From NCBI GenBank assembly GCA_027061805.1, contig JAMOWA010000005.1:1-64000 (forward strand): a DNA stretch of 64,000 nucleotides, in the 5' to 3' direction. This stretch comes from Thermoanaerobaculia bacterium. Its GTDB lineage: Bacteria > Acidobacteriota > Thermoanaerobaculia > Thermoanaerobaculales > Sulfomarinibacteraceae. Made by a program: the position numbers and the translations under genes. The notes under the pieces were generated by a model. It had not been told where the DNA came from and did no database searches. It saw only the letters and a list, made by a program, of their open reading frames with translations. This document shows positions 1 through 63,775 of the stretch, piece after piece. Within the stretch, counting starts at the first letter, position 1. Each line of letters opens with the position of its first letter.

Positions 1-326
1 TAAGGCAGACGAAACCCACCAGACCGAGTCGCCAAGGCTCCGATGGCCAGTCATCGGTGCAAGAACGCCCCGGCAATCTTGAGATTGCCAGTCGTCCGTG
101 TCGGGATGCTTTCCTTCGCCTTGGTACCTCCAACGGTCTCCTCCCCACATCCTTTTCACCGGAATCCTCTATATTGCTTCTGTGGAGACAATCTCTCTCG
201 AAGCTCAACCGTTTCGTCCACGCGGGGAGATCGGTGGCCTGTCATCCAGATCCCCCTGTCTCTCCGAGCCCCTGACCAGCCTCAGGCAGTGTCAACTTGC
301 TGGAACCCTGTTGGATCAGGTGCTCC
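1..326. other. Gene-free AT-richer leader before the flippase gene
   Basis: I recognise no gene here. One forward frame stays open from the window edge to about 275, but its translation is rich in Ser, Pro and Arg and resembles nothing I know, so I do not call it. The stretch holds one perfect dyad (72-89, arms GGCAATCT/AGATTGCC around TG), which could be an operator or a small hairpin. Base composition matches the AT-richer genes downstream and not the roughly 70 percent GC of the rest of the window. Confidence 0.4.
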
Positions 327-14853: not shown

Positions 14854-15303
14854 TCAGTCGGTCTGCAGGCCCTCGGGCCACTGGGCAAACATCCCGTTGA
14901 TGAAGATGATGTCGTCGTCGAAGTTGGTGGTCCTCTGCGGTATGTCTCCTACTAGACCGTCGTAGGAACGATCCTTACCGTAGGATGAAATGCTGTACGC
15001 CAGCGGACCCGACACCACAGCAAACCGATTGTTCCAGCCATCCTGCTGGGGCAGCACCCTGACATAGGTGGGCGAAACATATTCCGCCAGGGCCGAAATG
15101 GATGTAGCAGTCGGGTAGAAGTTGAAATCCACCTGGTACTGCTCCATGCCGGTGGCGATGGTGCGGATGTCCGCCATGGACCTCTTCTGCCGGCCACGGT
15201 TGATGGCGTTCAGCAGGTTCGGGATCGCGATGGCGGCGATGATGCCGATGATGGCCACCACGATCAGCAGCTCGATGAGGGTGAAACCACGTTGTCTCTT
15301 CAT
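14854..15303 (-). CDS. Type IV pilin/GspG-like pseudopilin (1)
   Basis: The 149-residue prepilin has a textbook class III signal: MKRQRG, then FTLIELLIVVAIIGIIAAIAIPN, cleaved by PilD between G and F with Glu at mature position 5. The short C-terminal domain ends IIFINGMFAQWPEGLQ, a tail shared with the neighbouring pilin gene. Size and pattern fit GspG-like major pseudopilins of type II secretion or small pilins. No assembly ATPase, platform protein or peptidase lies in the window. The ribosome site AAAGGAGG precedes the ATG; a sigma-54-type promoter lies upstream and an intrinsic terminator follows, so it is a self-contained transcription unit, as expected for an abundant subunit. Confidence 0.92.
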   Translation of the reverse strand: MKRQRGFTLIELLIVVAIIGIIAAIAIPNLLNAINRGRQKRSMADIRTIATGMEQYQVDFNFYPTATSISALAEYVSPTYVRVLPQQDGWNNRFAVVSGPLAYSISSYGKDRSYDGLVGDIPQRTTNFDDDIIFINGMFAQWPEGLQTD

Positions 15304-15429: not shown

Positions 15430-15885
15430 TCACCGGTTCACCTGGATTCCCTCGGGCCACTGGACGAACTGACCCCTCGACAGCACGATGTCGGCGTTGA
15501 CGTGGTGGGTCGGTCCCGAGACCCACGGGGAGGTCTCCACGCCATCGGCACCCCAGGAGACGAGGGTGTACCCCACCCCATCGCTCCGGTAGACGATCGC
15601 GCGCGACCACCCGTCGCGGACCGGGAGGGGCCTCACGTAGGTGGGCGCCAGGTGGGGCGCGATGGCCTCCACCGAACCGTCGTCCAGCCGGGGATAGAAG
15701 GAAAGGTCGTTGGAGTAGCTCTCCAGCGCCACGCCGATGGTGTGGAGGTCCATCATGGTTCGCCGCTGCCGGGCGCGGTCCAGGGCGCCCGGCAGGGCCA
15801 CCGCCGCGATGGCGGCCAGGAGTCCCAGGATGGCCACCACGATGAGGACCTCGACGAGCGTGAAGCCGCTGGATCGTCCCTTCAT
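15430..15885 (-). CDS. Type IV pilin/GspG-like pseudopilin (2)
   Basis: The 151-residue prepilin begins MKGRSSG, then FTLVEVLIVVAILGLLAAIAAVALPG, again a PilD site with Glu5. The C-terminal domain contains DGWSRAIVYRSDGVGYTLVSWGADG, the usual GspG-type beta region, and ends with VLSRGQFVQWPEGIQ, clearly related to the tail of the adjacent pilin. The ATG at 15885 is selected because the prepilin signal starts there; the frame extends 15 codons upstream without similarity. The two genes look like an ancient duplication. Function as pilin or pseudopilin cannot be separated without the rest of the machine. Confidence 0.9.
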   Translation of the reverse strand: MKGRSSGFTLVEVLIVVAILGLLAAIAAVALPGALDRARQRRTMMDLHTIGVALESYSNDLSFYPRLDDGSVEAIAPHLAPTYVRPLPVRDGWSRAIVYRSDGVGYTLVSWGADGVETSPWVSGPTHHVNADIVLSRGQFVQWPEGIQVNR

Positions 15886-29665: not shown

Positions 29666-30958
29666 ATGGCCCTGCTCGTGCACAACGCCTCCCGGGTGGT
29701 CACCCCCACCGGGACGGCGCCGGCCCGCAGGAACGACCTGGGCGAGCTCCGGATCCTCGACGGCGCCGTGGTGCGCTGCGAGGAGGGCCGCATCGCCTTC
29801 GTGGGGCCACCTGAGGAGCACGACCGCCTCTTCCCGCCCCCGGAGGAACGCCTGGACGCGGGGGGCGGCTGCGTGATCCCGGGCTTCGTGGACCCCCACA
29901 CCCACCCGGTCTGGGCGGGCTCCCGGGAGGACGAGTTCAACCGGCGCCTGCGTGGCGAGACCTACATGGACATCGCCCGGGCCGGGGGAGGCATCAACTC
30001 CACGGTGCGGGCCACCCGCGGCGCCTCCTTCGAGGAGCTTCTCGAGGGAACCCTGGCCCGGCTCGACACCTTCCTCCTCCACGGCACCACCACCCTGGAG
30101 GCCAAGTCGGGCTACGGCCTGGACCTGGACACCGAGCTGCGGATGCTCGAGGTCATCGCGGAGGCCGGCAGGCGGCATCCCCTGGACCTGGTGCCCACCT
30201 GCCTGGCCGCCCACGAGGTGCCCCCCGAGCACCGCGACGACCCCGGGGCCTGGGTGGAGGAGCTGGTCCGGCGCATCCACCCGGAGATCGCCCGCCGGGG
30301 CCTGGCCGAGGCGGTGGACGTCTTCTGCGAGGAGGGGGTCTTCGACCTGGAGCAGACCCGGCACCTCCTGGCCGACGCGCCCCTCTACGGCTGGCGGATC
30401 CACCTGCACGCCGACGAGCTGACCCCCCTGGGCGGTGCGGAGCTGGCCGTGGAGCTGGGGGCGCTGACCGCCGACCACCTGGTGCACGTGACGGAGGAGG
30501 GCATCGCCGCGCTCGCGGACTCCGACACCCTGGCCGTGCTGCTGCCGGGGACCTCCTTCTTCCTCCGGTCGTCCTACGCGCCCGCCCGGCGCATGGTGGA
30601 GGCCGGCTGCGCCGTGGCCCTGGCCACCGACTTCAACCCCGGCTCCTCGCCCACCGAGTCCATGCCCGCCATCCTCCAGCTGGCCACACTGGTCATGGGG
30701 CTCACCGTGGAGGAGGCGCTCACCGCGGCCACCCTCAACGCCGCGGCGGCCATCGGCCGGGCGGGGGAGCTCGGCACCCTGGAGGAAGGCAAGCGCGCCG
30801 ACCTGGCGGTGCTCCGCGAGCCCACCCACCACCACCTGGTCTACCACTACGGGGTCAACCCCGTGCGCCACGTGGTGAAGGGCGGCACCGTTGTGGTCCG
30901 GGACGGCACACTCGACAATCTCGGCGCGAGAGGACGGAGCGGAACCAGCCCGGCATGA
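29666..30958 (+). CDS. hutI: Imidazolonepropionase with a displaced C-terminus
   Basis: The 430-residue amidohydrolase of histidine breakdown opens imidazolone-5-propionate to formiminoglutamate. The metal site is seen in DPHTHP (His78, His80), HLHADE near 247 and ATDFNPGSSPTES near 320; the substrate-binding SGYGLDLDTELRML is intact. The last conserved segment is GVNPVRHVVKGGTVVVRDG. After this the native end appears to have been replaced by TLDNLGARGRSGTSPA, because a 107-bp copy of the 3' end reappears 1,728 bp downstream with the likely original ending VRVA. The catalytic residues are all upstream of the junction, so activity may survive. No hutH, hutU or hutG is nearby. Confidence 0.93.
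   Translation: MALLVHNASRVVTPTGTAPARRNDLGELRILDGAVVRCEEGRIAFVGPPEEHDRLFPPPEERLDAGGGCVIPGFVDPHTHPVWAGSREDEFNRRLRGETYMDIARAGGGINSTVRATRGASFEELLEGTLARLDTFLLHGTTTLEAKSGYGLDLDTELRMLEVIAEAGRRHPLDLVPTCLAAHEVPPEHRDDPGAWVEELVRRIHPEIARRGLAEAVDVFCEEGVFDLEQTRHLLADAPLYGWRIHLHADELTPLGGAELAVELGALTADHLVHVTEEGIAALADSDTLAVLLPGTSFFLRSSYAPARRMVEAGCAVALATDFNPGSSPTESMPAILQLATLVMGLTVEEALTAATLNAAAAIGRAGELGTLEEGKRADLAVLREPTHHHLVYHYGVNPVRHVVKGGTVVVRDGTLDNLGARGRSGTSPA
30797..30903 (+). repeat. 107-bp direct repeat, copy 1 (inside hutI)
   Basis: This segment encodes the C-terminal DLAVLREPTHHH...VVVRD part of hutI. It is identical to 32525-32631 except for one base (TAC here, CAC in the other copy). The identity stops sharply at both ends. 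It marks the left boundary of an insertion of about 1.6 kb. Confidence 0.95.
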
Positions 30959-30983
30959 TCGCTTCTCCCCGGAGCCCCTGAGG

Positions 30984-30989
30984 TAGACT
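30984..30989 (+). promoter_or_regulatory. -10 box directly before the inserted gene
   Basis: TAGACT ends six bases before the ATG at 30996; no ribosome site separates them, so the transcript is probably leaderless. No clear -35 is present. Confidence 0.4.
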
Positions 30990-30995
30990 GCCGGC

Positions 30996-32474
30996 ATGGA
31001 GCTCTCCGGACCCGATACAACCCGGGCCCCGTCCGATCGGCGTCCGCACGGCGCCGCCCGCCATGCCCTGGGGTGGTTCGGGGGGGCTCTCCTCCTCTAC
31101 GGCTGGTCGGCGGCAAGAGCTCCCATGTGGGCGGACAGCTCCAAGCTCACCCTCTACGCCATCTCCGGGTACCTTCCCTCTCTCAATCCCGGAGACCACC
31201 CGGGATGGACACTCCTCGCCCGTGGGTGGCTGGTGCTGATCCGGTTCCTGGGAGCGATCCAGGCGCTTCATCTGCTCTCGGCCGTAAGCGGCGCTCTCGG
31301 AATCGCACTGGTCTTCACACTGGTGACACGATGGACGGATGACATGGCCCGGGGACACGCAGCCGCAACCATCCTCCTGGTTGCACATTCCCTGTGGTGG
31401 ACCTCCTCCCTGACGGAGAGCTATGCCCCCGCTCTCACGCTGGCGCTGACCGCCCTCCTGGCAGCCGGGGCTCCCGGAACCCTGCGTGGCCTCGCCACCG
31501 GAATCGCCACCGGTCTCGGTACCGCCGTCCACCCCTTCAGCCTCGTGCTCTCGGGTCCGCTCCTCGCCGTCCACTGGAAGCGCCCTTCCATCTGGGGAGG
31601 GGTGCTCCTGGGCTCCTCCCCGATCTGGTTGGGCCTGATGGGCACCCCTGCCGATCCGCTCACGGGTCACTCTGCCGGTGGTGCAGGAACATGGAGATGG
31701 CACATCCAGCAATTCCTCGATCCCCACCACATCCTCATGGGTGGCCTCATGGTCCTGGCGCTTCTCGCCTTCAACCTCGGACCTGTCGGCTCGTGGGCCG
31801 TCGTCCGGAGCCTCCGCCACTCATCCGGTCATCCCTGTCCCCGAACGGCATGGACTGTTCTGGCCGGGTACCTCCTCGTTCTCTGCCTCTACAGTCCATT
31901 CCGGCTCCACCTGATGGTGGGATTCGGCATCAGCGCACTTGTTCTCCTCACCGGTCCGCAGCTCGGGCTCCCCGCACGAATCGGTCATGTCATTGTCCAG
32001 GCAACAGCCTACCTCTGTCTGCCACTGCTCCTGGGGCTGGTGGGCCGAGGCGATCTCGGACTCCGCCAACTCCCCGAGCGAAACAACGCCTGGTACTTCC
32101 TGTGCCCGATCAAGAACTTCGACCATGGTCCCGAAAGATACGCCCATTCTCTGCTGGAGCAGGCCCCGGACAATGCGACCATCATCTCCGATTTCAACCC
32201 CGGAGCGGTCCTCGCTCTGGTCCAACGTACCGAGAGCCTTCGCCCGGATCTCGTCATATTGCCCACCGTCGTGGACGAAACGCTGGGCGGTTCCGATCCG
32301 GCGGCAGCATTGTCGGCTCTCATCCTCGATCAGATCGAGCAGGGCAACCCCGTCGTTCTTGCGGACCGGTGGGAGCCGTACTACCACACCTCGGAGATCG
32401 AGCGCCGCCTGCCTGTTTCGTTGGTTCCATGTGGTCCCGGTTGGAGGATCGTCCCCGAATCGGGAGAGCAGTAA
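30996..32474 (+). CDS. Inserted polytopic membrane protein (DUF2723-like, GT-C type)
   Basis: The 492-residue protein has about ten membrane segments. The first periplasmic loop WADSSKLTLYAISGYLPSLNPGDHPGWTLL follows the DUF2723/protein O-mannosyltransferase-like pattern of an acidic residue followed by a HPG motif. The C-terminal third is soluble: NNAWYFLCPI, APDNATIISDFNPGAVLALV, PDLVILPTVV. GC is clearly lower than in hutI. It is the only gene in a segment flanked by 107-bp direct repeats of the hutI tail, so it was acquired as a unit. A sugar or lipid-transfer role is a family-level guess; the catalytic acid is not confirmed. Confidence 0.75.
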   Translation: MELSGPDTTRAPSDRRPHGAARHALGWFGGALLLYGWSAARAPMWADSSKLTLYAISGYLPSLNPGDHPGWTLLARGWLVLIRFLGAIQALHLLSAVSGALGIALVFTLVTRWTDDMARGHAAATILLVAHSLWWTSSLTESYAPALTLALTALLAAGAPGTLRGLATGIATGLGTAVHPFSLVLSGPLLAVHWKRPSIWGGVLLGSSPIWLGLMGTPADPLTGHSAGGAGTWRWHIQQFLDPHHILMGGLMVLALLAFNLGPVGSWAVVRSLRHSSGHPCPRTAWTVLAGYLLVLCLYSPFRLHLMVGFGISALVLLTGPQLGLPARIGHVIVQATAYLCLPLLLGLVGRGDLGLRQLPERNNAWYFLCPIKNFDHGPERYAHSLLEQAPDNATIISDFNPGAVLALVQRTESLRPDLVILPTVVDETLGGSDPAAALSALILDQIEQGNPVVLADRWEPYYHTSEIERRLPVSLVPCGPGWRIVPESGEQ

Positions 32475-32524
32475 CACGATCACCGTTTCTCTCCCGGCAA
32501 CCGGAGCGTCTCGCCACGGATCGG

Positions 32525-32650
32525 GCCGACCTGGCGGTGCTCCGCGAGCCCACCCACCACCACCTGGTCTACCACCACGGGGTCAACCCCGTGCGCCACG
32601 TGGTGAAGGGCGGCACCGTTGTGGTCCGGGATGGTGTCCGCGTGGCCTGA
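32525..32650 (+). pseudogene. Orphan 3' end of hutI (direct repeat copy 2)
   Basis: The first 107 bases (32525-32631) match 30797-30903 with one change, then the frame continues to VRVA and a TGA at 32648-32650. There is no start codon or ribosome site in front of it, so it is a translated-tail remnant and not a gene. It probably preserves the original hutI terminus displaced by the inserted segment. The convergent heptosyltransferase-like gene ends four bases later. Confidence 0.9.
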
Positions 32651-32653
32651 GCT

Positions 32654-33649
32654 TCAGGCCTCCAGCAGCCCGAGCACCCTTCCCAGCACCTCGTCCACCC
32701 CGATCTCCCGGAGGCAGGCCTGCGTCCCCAGCGGACACACGGGCTCGAAGCAGGGTGCGCAGTCCAGGCCACGTGAGACCACGGCGCTCCGCGGTCCGAG
32801 CGGCGCGGTCCGCCGGGGATCGGTGGGCCCGAAGAGCCCCACCACCGGGCAGCCCGCCAGGGCCGCCAGGTGCATGGGCCCCGAGTCGTTGGCAACCACC
32901 GCGGCCAGGTGGGACATGAGGCCCGCGAGCCCCGCCACGTCCAGGGAGGAACCCAGCGCCGGGAGCTCCCCGCCGGAGGCCGCCCGGACCTCCGCCGCCA
33001 CGCCCTCCTCGCCGGGCCCGATCAGGACGACGGGAACGAAGCCCCGGCCGGCCAGCCTCGCGGCCAGTTCCCCGAAACGCTCCACGGGCCAGCGCTTGGA
33101 CTCGCCCCAGGCCGCGGAGGGGGCCAGCCCGACCACAGGGCCGCCGGCACCCACCGCCGCGAGCGCCACCCTCCCCTCCTCCCGCAGCGCCCCGGACAGC
33201 TCCGGCCGCCAGCCGGGATCGGCCGGCGGGAGGCCCAGGCGCTCCAGGATCGGATCGGCGTCGTGCACCTGGTGACGCTCCCTGTCCACCGCCACCGGGT
33301 CGCTGAGCAGCAGCCGGCCGCCCTCCCCCATGCTGCCCAGGCTCCTCCGGGCCGTCAGGCGGAGCAGCAGCTTGGCCCGCCCCGCATGGCGGAGGGTGAC
33401 CCCAACACCGAAGCGGCCGGTATCCGAGCGCAGCTTCCGGGCCACGGCAAATGGGGACTCGCCCTTCCGGGTGACCACCACCCGCACGGCGGGGAACAGC
33501 TCTGCCAGCAGACGTTCCACGGGGGGCCGTGCGTGGAGCACGGTCTCCCCGTCCGCGTTGGCCGCGACGAGCCGCGCCACCGCAGGGAGGGACATCACCA
33601 CGTCGCCCACCCAGTTGGGCAGATCGACGAGGAGACGGTCCGGGAGCAT
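32654..33649 (-). CDS. Glycosyltransferase family 9 (heptosyltransferase-like)
   Basis: The 331-residue GT-B enzyme starts RLLVDLPNWVGDVVMSLPAVARL, the N-terminal heptosyltransferase motif, and has GLAPSAAWGESKRWPVERF, VLIGPGEEG, and ANDSGPMHLAALAGCPVVGLFGPTDP near the C-terminus, where the donor ADP-heptose binds. Cys residues in LDCAPCFEPVCPL follow the LpsA/WaaF-type spacing. It would build the inner core of lipopolysaccharide. The ATG shares one base with the stop of the upstream phosphodiesterase gene (TGATG). The core block and this gene may form one transcript. Confidence 0.9.
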   Translation of the reverse strand: MLPDRLLVDLPNWVGDVVMSLPAVARLVAANADGETVLHARPPVERLLAELFPAVRVVVTRKGESPFAVARKLRSDTGRFGVGVTLRHAGRAKLLLRLTARRSLGSMGEGGRLLLSDPVAVDRERHQVHDADPILERLGLPPADPGWRPELSGALREEGRVALAAVGAGGPVVGLAPSAAWGESKRWPVERFGELAARLAGRGFVPVVLIGPGEEGVAAEVRAASGGELPALGSSLDVAGLAGLMSHLAAVVANDSGPMHLAALAGCPVVGLFGPTDPRRTAPLGPRSAVVSRGLDCAPCFEPVCPLGTQACLREIGVDEVLGRVLGLLEA

Positions 33650-34443
33650 CAGTCCGGGGCCACCCGGATCCGCCGGATCGACAGCGCCCGGCCGGTCTCC
33701 GGATCGGCCTCCACCACCGCGCCCCGGAGCTCTCCCCCGCGGCGCGCAGGCTCGAAGGGGCGGGGCGTGTTGAGGAGGAAGCGCTCCAGGACCTTCTGGG
33801 GCCGCATGCCGATGATGGACTCGTAGGGGCCCGTCATGCCCACGTCGGTCTGCAGCGCGGTCCCCCCCGGCAGGATCCGCTCGTCGGCCGTGGGCACGTG
33901 GGTGTGGGTTCCCAGCACGGCCGTCACGCGGCCGTCCAGGTGCCACCCCATGGCCTGCTTCTCCGAGGTGGCCTCGGCGTGCATGTCCACGACGATCACG
34001 CGCACCCCCGGATGGGCCGAGGCGATCTCCGCGAGCACCTCGTCGGCGACCCTGAAGGGGTTGTCGATGGGGGGCATCAGGGCCTGGCCCTGGAGGTTCA
34101 CCACGGCCACGGGCACCCCCGCTGCCGTCTCCTCCACGACCCACCCACGGCCGGGGTTCCCCCGGGGATAGTTGGCCGGCCGGATGAGCGTGGGGTAGGC
34201 GTCCAGGAGCGGGATCCCCTCCTTCTTGTCCCAGATGTGGTTGCCGCTGGTCCAGACGTCCACGGGGAGCGCGTCCAGCTCCTCCATGACCTGTGGGGTG
34301 ACACCGAAGCCCCCCGCGGCGTTCTCCAGGTTGGCCACCACGAAGTCCACCCGCTCGCGGTCGACGAGCGGCTCCAGGTGGGCCGCGAGCAGCCGCCGGC
34401 CCACCTTCGCCATCACGTCGCCCACGAACAGGATGCGGATCAC
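33649..34443 (-). CDS. ymdB: YmdB-type metallophosphoesterase
   Basis: The 264-residue TIGR00282 phosphodiesterase has [12 protein letters not shown] at the start, [34 protein letters not shown] and [26 protein letters not shown], covering the two-metal site. Bacillus YmdB hydrolyses cyclic nucleotides and controls biofilm versus motility; function outside Firmicutes is less certain. It is coupled to rny by an ATGA overlap, the same rny-ymdB order as in many bacteria. Confidence 0.93.
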
Positions 34444-63327: not shown

Positions 63328-63465
63328 ATGTACACCCTCGCCGTCTTCGAATTCATCGAGGGCTGGTACAACCCCTCCCGCCTCCACTCCGCCCTCTGCT
63401 ACCAGTCCCCCAACCAGTACGAAAGGAGAAACCTCCATCATCACATCCAACGTCTCGATCCGTGA
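63328..63465 (+). pseudogene. IS3-family transposase remnant
   Basis: Only the last 45 residues of an OrfB-type transposase remain. The segment FIEGWYNPSRLHSALCYQSPNQYERR is the typical C-terminal end of the DDE integrase core (W-YN..R.HSAL.Y.SP..YE). The catalytic D-D-E residues and the upstream frame are gone and no terminal repeats were seen. Confidence 0.8.
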
Positions 63466-63775
63466 TGGTTCTTCCGTCCCACCACCACGCCCCGCAGCGC
63501 CCGCTCCGCCTCACGATCCGGTGCCTCACCGTGCATCCCCCGACGCTGCACCACAACCCCTCCCTCCACGACCCGGGACAGGGCGAGGGCGTACCCCGGA
63601 CCCGGACTCCGACACGGCCGGGGACCCTTCTCCCGGTTCCGGTGGCCGGGAGGGTGGCGGGATGCGCGGATTGTGATGGGGATCACAACCGGTGTTCTCC
63701 GGGCTTGACAGGGAGTGGTGTGGGTGATGTGGTCAGGAGGTGGACACCCGTTCGAGAAGAATCCTGGGGGTGCGC
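63466..63775 (+). other. Spacer with regulatory sites, no gene
   Basis: Codons here are not protein-like. The right half holds a CRP-type palindrome at 63671-63688 and a TTGACA at 63705-63710; the predicted start lies near 63740. The left half after the transposase remnant shows nothing I can name. Confidence 0.4.
63671..63688 (+). promoter_or_regulatory. CRP/FNR-type palindrome
   Basis: TTGTGATGGGGATCACAA is a perfect dyad and fits TGTGA-N6-TCACA exactly. Its centre is about 26 bases before a TTGACA (63705-63710), near position -61 from a likely start, the class I activator position. No regulator of this family is encoded in the window. Confidence 0.65.

Follow-up and report, generated by a model that had tools for sequence, protein, structure and literature searches.

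How does a single membrane-protein gene come to lie between two nearly identical copies of the end of its neighbor? The question is raised by a locus in a stretch of 64,000 nucleotides (here, the window), which makes up most of contig C5 of a draft genome of 3.1 Mb in 68 contigs (hereafter, G000). The neighbor, hutI (29666–30958, plus strand), is an open reading frame for an imidazolonepropionase-like amidohydrolase of 430 amino acids, with amidohydrolase Pfam matches and 71–80% identity to hutI of relatives in the same family. Toward its end, the codons for RADLAVL..VVRDG form repeat copy 1 (30794–30906, plus strand), and copy 2, an orphan hutI 3′ end, lies 1,728 bp further on (32522–32634, plus strand). 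The two are 97% identical over 113 nt. In their near-identical cores (30797–30903 and 32525–32631), pairwise alignment matches 106 of 107 positions, the sole difference being TAC/CAC. A preliminary description of this DNA had reported two such repeats around one lower-GC membrane-protein gene, and we confirm it: the single open reading frame between the copies (30996–32474) encodes 492 amino acids and has a GC content of 65.0%. A whole-genome search found the 107-mer at two sites only, the two hutI-end copies, and a chance origin of the repeat is excluded (own-genome E-values of 1e-50 and 4e-49). Elsewhere in the window, direct repeats of at least 60 nt are limited to a tRNA-like pair (44468/44559) and a 73% identical pair at 15156–15288 and 15735–15867; by eye, the latter resembles, on the minus strand, the conserved N-termini of two adjacent type IV pilin-like genes.

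Between the copies, the gene that we call M (30996–32474, plus strand) is preceded by 92 nt and followed by 50 nt, both single-copy in the genome. The upstream stretch (30904–30995, plus strand) is identified as non-hutI sequence by codon counts and genome search, and comprises a new hutI tail and the hutI–M gap; a putative −10-like box, TAGACT, was read by eye immediately before the M start. The downstream stretch (32475–32524, plus strand) runs from the M stop codon to copy 2. Copy 1 continues leftward into hutI, and copy 2 rightward into a hutI-like ending, ..DGVRVA* (32632–32650, plus strand), and then GT9, the outward continuity expected of a Campbell-type repeat. GT9 (32654–33652, minus strand), which we take to be glycosyltransferase-family-9-like, is a convergent and conserved neighbor, and relatives have 51–60% identical orthologues of it located downstream of either M or hutI; its stop lies 3 nt from that of the hutI-like ending. 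The hutI and GT9 stop regions together form a perfect inverted repeat (GGCCTGA-GCT-TCAGGCC, 32644–32660) that could be a shared terminator of the convergent genes. In agreement with the preliminary description, the list of open reading frames contains no apparent transposase or integrase between or beside the copies. Nor was a pair of terminal inverted repeats found around the insert, and the duplication measures 107 bp; the marks of a transposon or IS (transposase, inverted repeats, and short target duplication) are therefore absent.

The two copies end differently: hutI reads through copy 1 into TLDNLGARGRSGTSPA, a C-terminal tail of 16 residues, and copy 2 ends in RDGVRVA. DGVR occurs at the same place in the hutI of relatives (DGVRF.. 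in G017 and DGVRT.. in G005), whose endings are similar. The pattern D-G-x-R-[VITLF] followed by an early stop has a frequency of ~9e-5 in random G000 DNA, a generous figure because the pattern was picked after seeing the data and no more than 7 of 17 relatives have G-x-R. In the hutI body (412 codons), AGA, AAT, and GCA are absent, ACA occurs once, and GGA twice; the 16-codon tail uses AGA, AAT, GCA, and ACA, plus two GGA. From the DGVRVA* pattern of copy 2 and the foreign codons of the copy-1 tail, it appears that hutI has probably recruited a tail and that its old ending survives downstream as copy 2, as had been proposed at the outset. At its end, copy 2 has GAT GGT, two codons seldom used in hutI, which is a little unexpected if this is the native ending. 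Copy 2 further has His at a position where Tyr or Phe stands in the inspected relatives, a Tyr-to-His substitution that fits a copy without function. Since hutI products of 417–430 amino acids are found among relatives, the longer tail is by itself not abnormal. Neither the new tail nor the gap between M and copy 2 showed homology above shuffles to the intergenic DNA of relatives.

The M product has no convincing family in Pfam, NCBIfam, or PADLOC. A profile of the M family matches TMEM260, a protein O-mannosyltransferase, with an E-value of 0.0021. The AlphaFold (AF2) model of M is confident (pLDDT 91.5), and Foldseek searches with it return ArnT (E-value 3e-6) and OST subunits (E-values 4e-5 to 7e-4), i.e., proteins of the polytopic GT-C fold. 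The family shares conserved WADSSKL and NPGDH stretches and two invariant aspartates, Asp47 and Asp67. In GT-C glycosyltransferases, the first extracytoplasmic loop typically holds a catalytic acidic residue. Based on profile and model, M is most likely a lipid-linked-sugar glycosyltransferase, a polytopic membrane protein of predicted ArnT/TMEM260-like fold. It thus resembles the GT-C glycosyltransferases (ArnT, TMEM260, OST/PMT) in its matches to TMEM260 and ArnT, but differs from them in its lack of a recognized family and in sharing just 13–14% identity with ArnT in the structural alignment. In composition, the GC3 of M is 74%, whereas hutI, GT9, and ymdB have a GC content of 72–76% and a GC3 of 91–96%. 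In G004, the closest sampled relative, M has a GC3 of 83%, and the GC3 of hutI is above 90% in both genomes. The value is not extreme, with 12% of roughly called genes in a 394-kb genome sample being equal or lower; at most, it suggests weakly that M has had a different recent past or is under weak constraint.

Is M, then, a newcomer? Four family members have orthologues of it at 51–62% identity, and many members of the sister family have orthologues at ~44–50%. In G007, G008, and G013, representing two genera, the order divIVA, hutI, M, convergent GT9, ymdB, and rny is the same as in G000, and there is a single hutI end; the same hutI–M–GT9 order is found in records L077, L078, and L086. In G030, from the sister family, M is likewise adjacent to hutI, though oppositely oriented. 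The M tree, ((G000,G004),G007),(G008,G013), agrees with the marker tree for these genomes, a tree that places the sister family badly, three of the five markers being missing from its fetched stretches. Judged by these comparisons, M is not a foreign delivery and is the usual hutI neighbor in relatives. The new acquisition envisaged in the preliminary description, i.e., a foreign cassette, is ruled out by the same-place orthologues in three related genomes and by the match between M and marker trees. Its suggestion that M be sought beside hutI, or between copies of a host gene, in other genomes is answered by the three relatives, all of which have M next to hutI with one hutI end; for the same reason, the opposite prospect of relatives that all carry both copies is contradicted. 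We also considered an ancient insertion whose second hutI end has decayed in relatives. This is ruled out by the 99% likeness of the copies in G000 and by the M–GT9 gaps in relatives, which are about 0–50 nt.

In G004, which is the sister of G000 in both trees, the arrangement differs. Its hutI site has neither M nor GT9, and its M follows acpS on a different contig, which breaks off within M (C40, record L047, 9555–11245); a move of M or a misjoin in the contig would account for this. In the acpS region of G000 itself, neither M nor an M remnant was found. Across the family, the hutI–ymdB interval (30958–34443 in the window; records L043–L055) varies, holding M and GT9, GT9 only, GT9 with 1.7–3 kb of other DNA, or nothing. 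G009 retains only the last ~36 residues of M (C115, record L117, 7747–7854), a probable gene remnant, and has no true hutI. In G001 (C431, record L118, 1885–2064), only a 3′ end fragment of a close-type hutI is present, beside what by eye appears to be IS transposase sequence, possibly an IS disruption.

The reading that we favor, with a probability of roughly one half, is that the locus is a scar left when DNA from a close relative bearing M recombined into an M-less hutI–GT9 allele by way of the final 107 bp of hutI. The recipient would have had hutI ending in DGVRVA* directly against GT9, without M, and the donor fragment would have come from a very close relative with the hutI–M order usual in the clade. 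A RecA-type homologous step would have taken place within those 107 bp. At its other end, the fragment would have been joined illegitimately at 32524/32525, 50 nt after M, at a short GC-rich match. In the alignment, CGGGCC stands against CGCGCC of hutI at this proposed joint (32522–32527), a candidate microhomology. The fragment may have recircularized and entered by a single crossover (Campbell type), or the event may have been one-sided, homology-facilitated, and illegitimate. Either route would leave hutI fused to a donor tail, M preceded by its own start region, and, beside GT9, a second, nonfunctional end of hutI. If a circle was used, the 99% likeness of the copies means that the donor hutI end was nearly identical to that of the recipient; a one-sided event would allow the duplicated stretch to derive from the recipient alone.

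Several observations bear on this scar reading. DNA in which M is linked to hutI exists in the clade, M immediately following hutI and preceding GT9 in G007, G008, and G013. The preliminary description had looked to the nearest genomes for hutI loci with the old ending and no insert, and in this comparison G004 is M-less at hutI, its site also lacking GT9, and DGVR is found in G017 and G005, no congener of G000 being among the relatives compared. ComEC is present in G000 and Ku was not found there, a combination compatible with DNA uptake that proves nothing. The Campbell-type integration proposed earlier is plausible, since the copies continue outward into native sequence and there is precedent for such products (PMC3240628), but not as the delivery of a newly acquired gene. 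Among single events, recombination with an M-less allele is the simplest to account for every border. Against it, an arm of 107 bp is short for homologous recombination, and M is ancestrally at this site, where a rearrangement within the locus could lead to the same outcome with no transfer.

Such a local rearrangement is the main rival, possible though the less likely of the two. M would have been resident since the clade ancestor; a replication template switch would have placed a copy of the terminal ~130 bp of hutI, together with its ending, in the M–GT9 gap, and the first end would then have lost its original last codons, so that it now reads into old intergenic DNA. No second strain is required, and the ancestral position and apparently vertical inheritance of M in the three related genomes agree with this course of events, as does the Tyr-to-His change in copy 2. 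Moreover, with copy 2 subtracted, the M–GT9 gap is normal for relatives. The difficulty lies in its need for two events, a duplication and then the removal or exchange of the first hutI ending at precisely the edge of the repeat; the copied block must also finish 3 nt from the stop of GT9. Had no more than the 107 bp been copied, the resemblance of DGVRVA* to a hutI ending would be accidental, at the ~9e-5 level given above.

It is improbable that M was captured from another site of the same genome into a staggered break in hutI, whose fill-in produced a 107-bp target duplication. A long target-site duplication would be consistent with such a directly repeated flank–gene–flank arrangement, and the position of M beside acpS in G004 implies that M has moved in the clade. 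However, the capture would have struck by chance the same hutI–GT9 gap that M occupies in G007, G008, and G013, the acpS locus of G000 bears no trace of M, and neither inverted-repeat ends nor a transposase were found.

An artifact would make all of these events unnecessary, i.e., the hutI ends of two strains might have been falsely joined in assembly, and the genome, a draft of 68 contigs, may have been assembled from a metagenome in which strains were mixed. Nonetheless, an exact overlap of 126 nt links the beginning of C5 to another contig, and two further contigs begin with 127 nt that also occur elsewhere, as is characteristic of a graph built with k = 127. The longest exact stretch common to the two hutI copies is 55 nt, and the repeat is therefore too short to mislead such an assembler; within the genome, the sequence spanning 32524/32525 matches nothing but itself. 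A false join at the repeat is thus unlikely on these grounds, and the assembly error that the preliminary description had named as a refutation finds little room, the spot looking sound; we hold a chimera of assembly or strains to be hardly probable. Dispersed repeats do occur in G000. One family of ~130 nt, 91–100% identical, includes the contig start (window 1–126), L100:537–664, L108:16641–16768, L109:11518–11645, and L114:19414–19543. Others of ~150–290 nt, often at or near contig ends, are found at window 63453–63712, L102:9–268, L110:1619–2208, L096:15760–15956, and L103:1–197.

A more general process may be imagined, in which genes like M come and go at the hutI–GT9–ymdB interval of the family through the conserved hutI end, leaving orphan hutI ends behind; we regard such recurrent, transposase-free cassette exchange as very doubtful. 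Least likely of all is the small transposase-free gene delivery suggested earlier, in the form of a new system inserting genes behind copies of host gene ends, which the anatomy alone would permit but which is unsupported, as the 394-kb genome sample contains no second gene bracketed by copies of its neighbor's end, M is a resident, repeat-free hutI neighbor in three relatives, and ordinary recombination suffices.

The locus looks like an ordinary, if tidy, recombination scar, a known kind of event that lends no support to a new gene-delivery system. Its value lies in offering a clean natural example of the gene-end duplication left by single-crossover or one-sided recombination, in an uncultured group of Acidobacteriota where gene gain and loss are hard to catch happening. 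It also illustrates that a low-GC gene bracketed by repeats need not be foreign, M being the usual neighbor in relatives.

The nearest counterpart is the Campbell-type integration seen in the E. coli lacZ-end assay. When incoming DNA was homologous at one end, the recombinants screened arose mostly by end loss, recircularization, and a single crossover, with gene-end duplications of 109–950 bp (PMC3240628). The G000 locus shares with these products a duplicated gene 3′ end around the insert (107 bp here) and, as we read it, one homologous crossover and one illegitimate joint; unlike the selected plasmid insert of the assay, it holds a clade-typical hutI neighbor, and its history is reconstructed from a single genome. 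True HFIR was ~10 times rarer in E. coli than such products and generally caused deletions (PMC3240628). HFIR in S. pneumoniae, A. baylyi, and P. stutzeri, as summarized in the same study, combines, as is proposed for hutI, one homologous anchor with one illegitimate joint at a short match, the microhomology being 3–10 bp. There, however, the recipient generally, though not universally, loses DNA of about the insert size, whereas here the hutI end is duplicated and none is lost. The same logic operates on a larger scale in the T6SS arrays of V. cholerae and in Rhs loci, where orphan immunity genes and 3′ ends are displaced old gene ends kept downstream of a new segment anchored by upstream homology (PMC5361080). 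Those clusters are effector/immunity arrays that undergo repeated displacement; at hutI, by contrast, the end of a metabolic gene and a glycosyltransferase-like gene would record one event.
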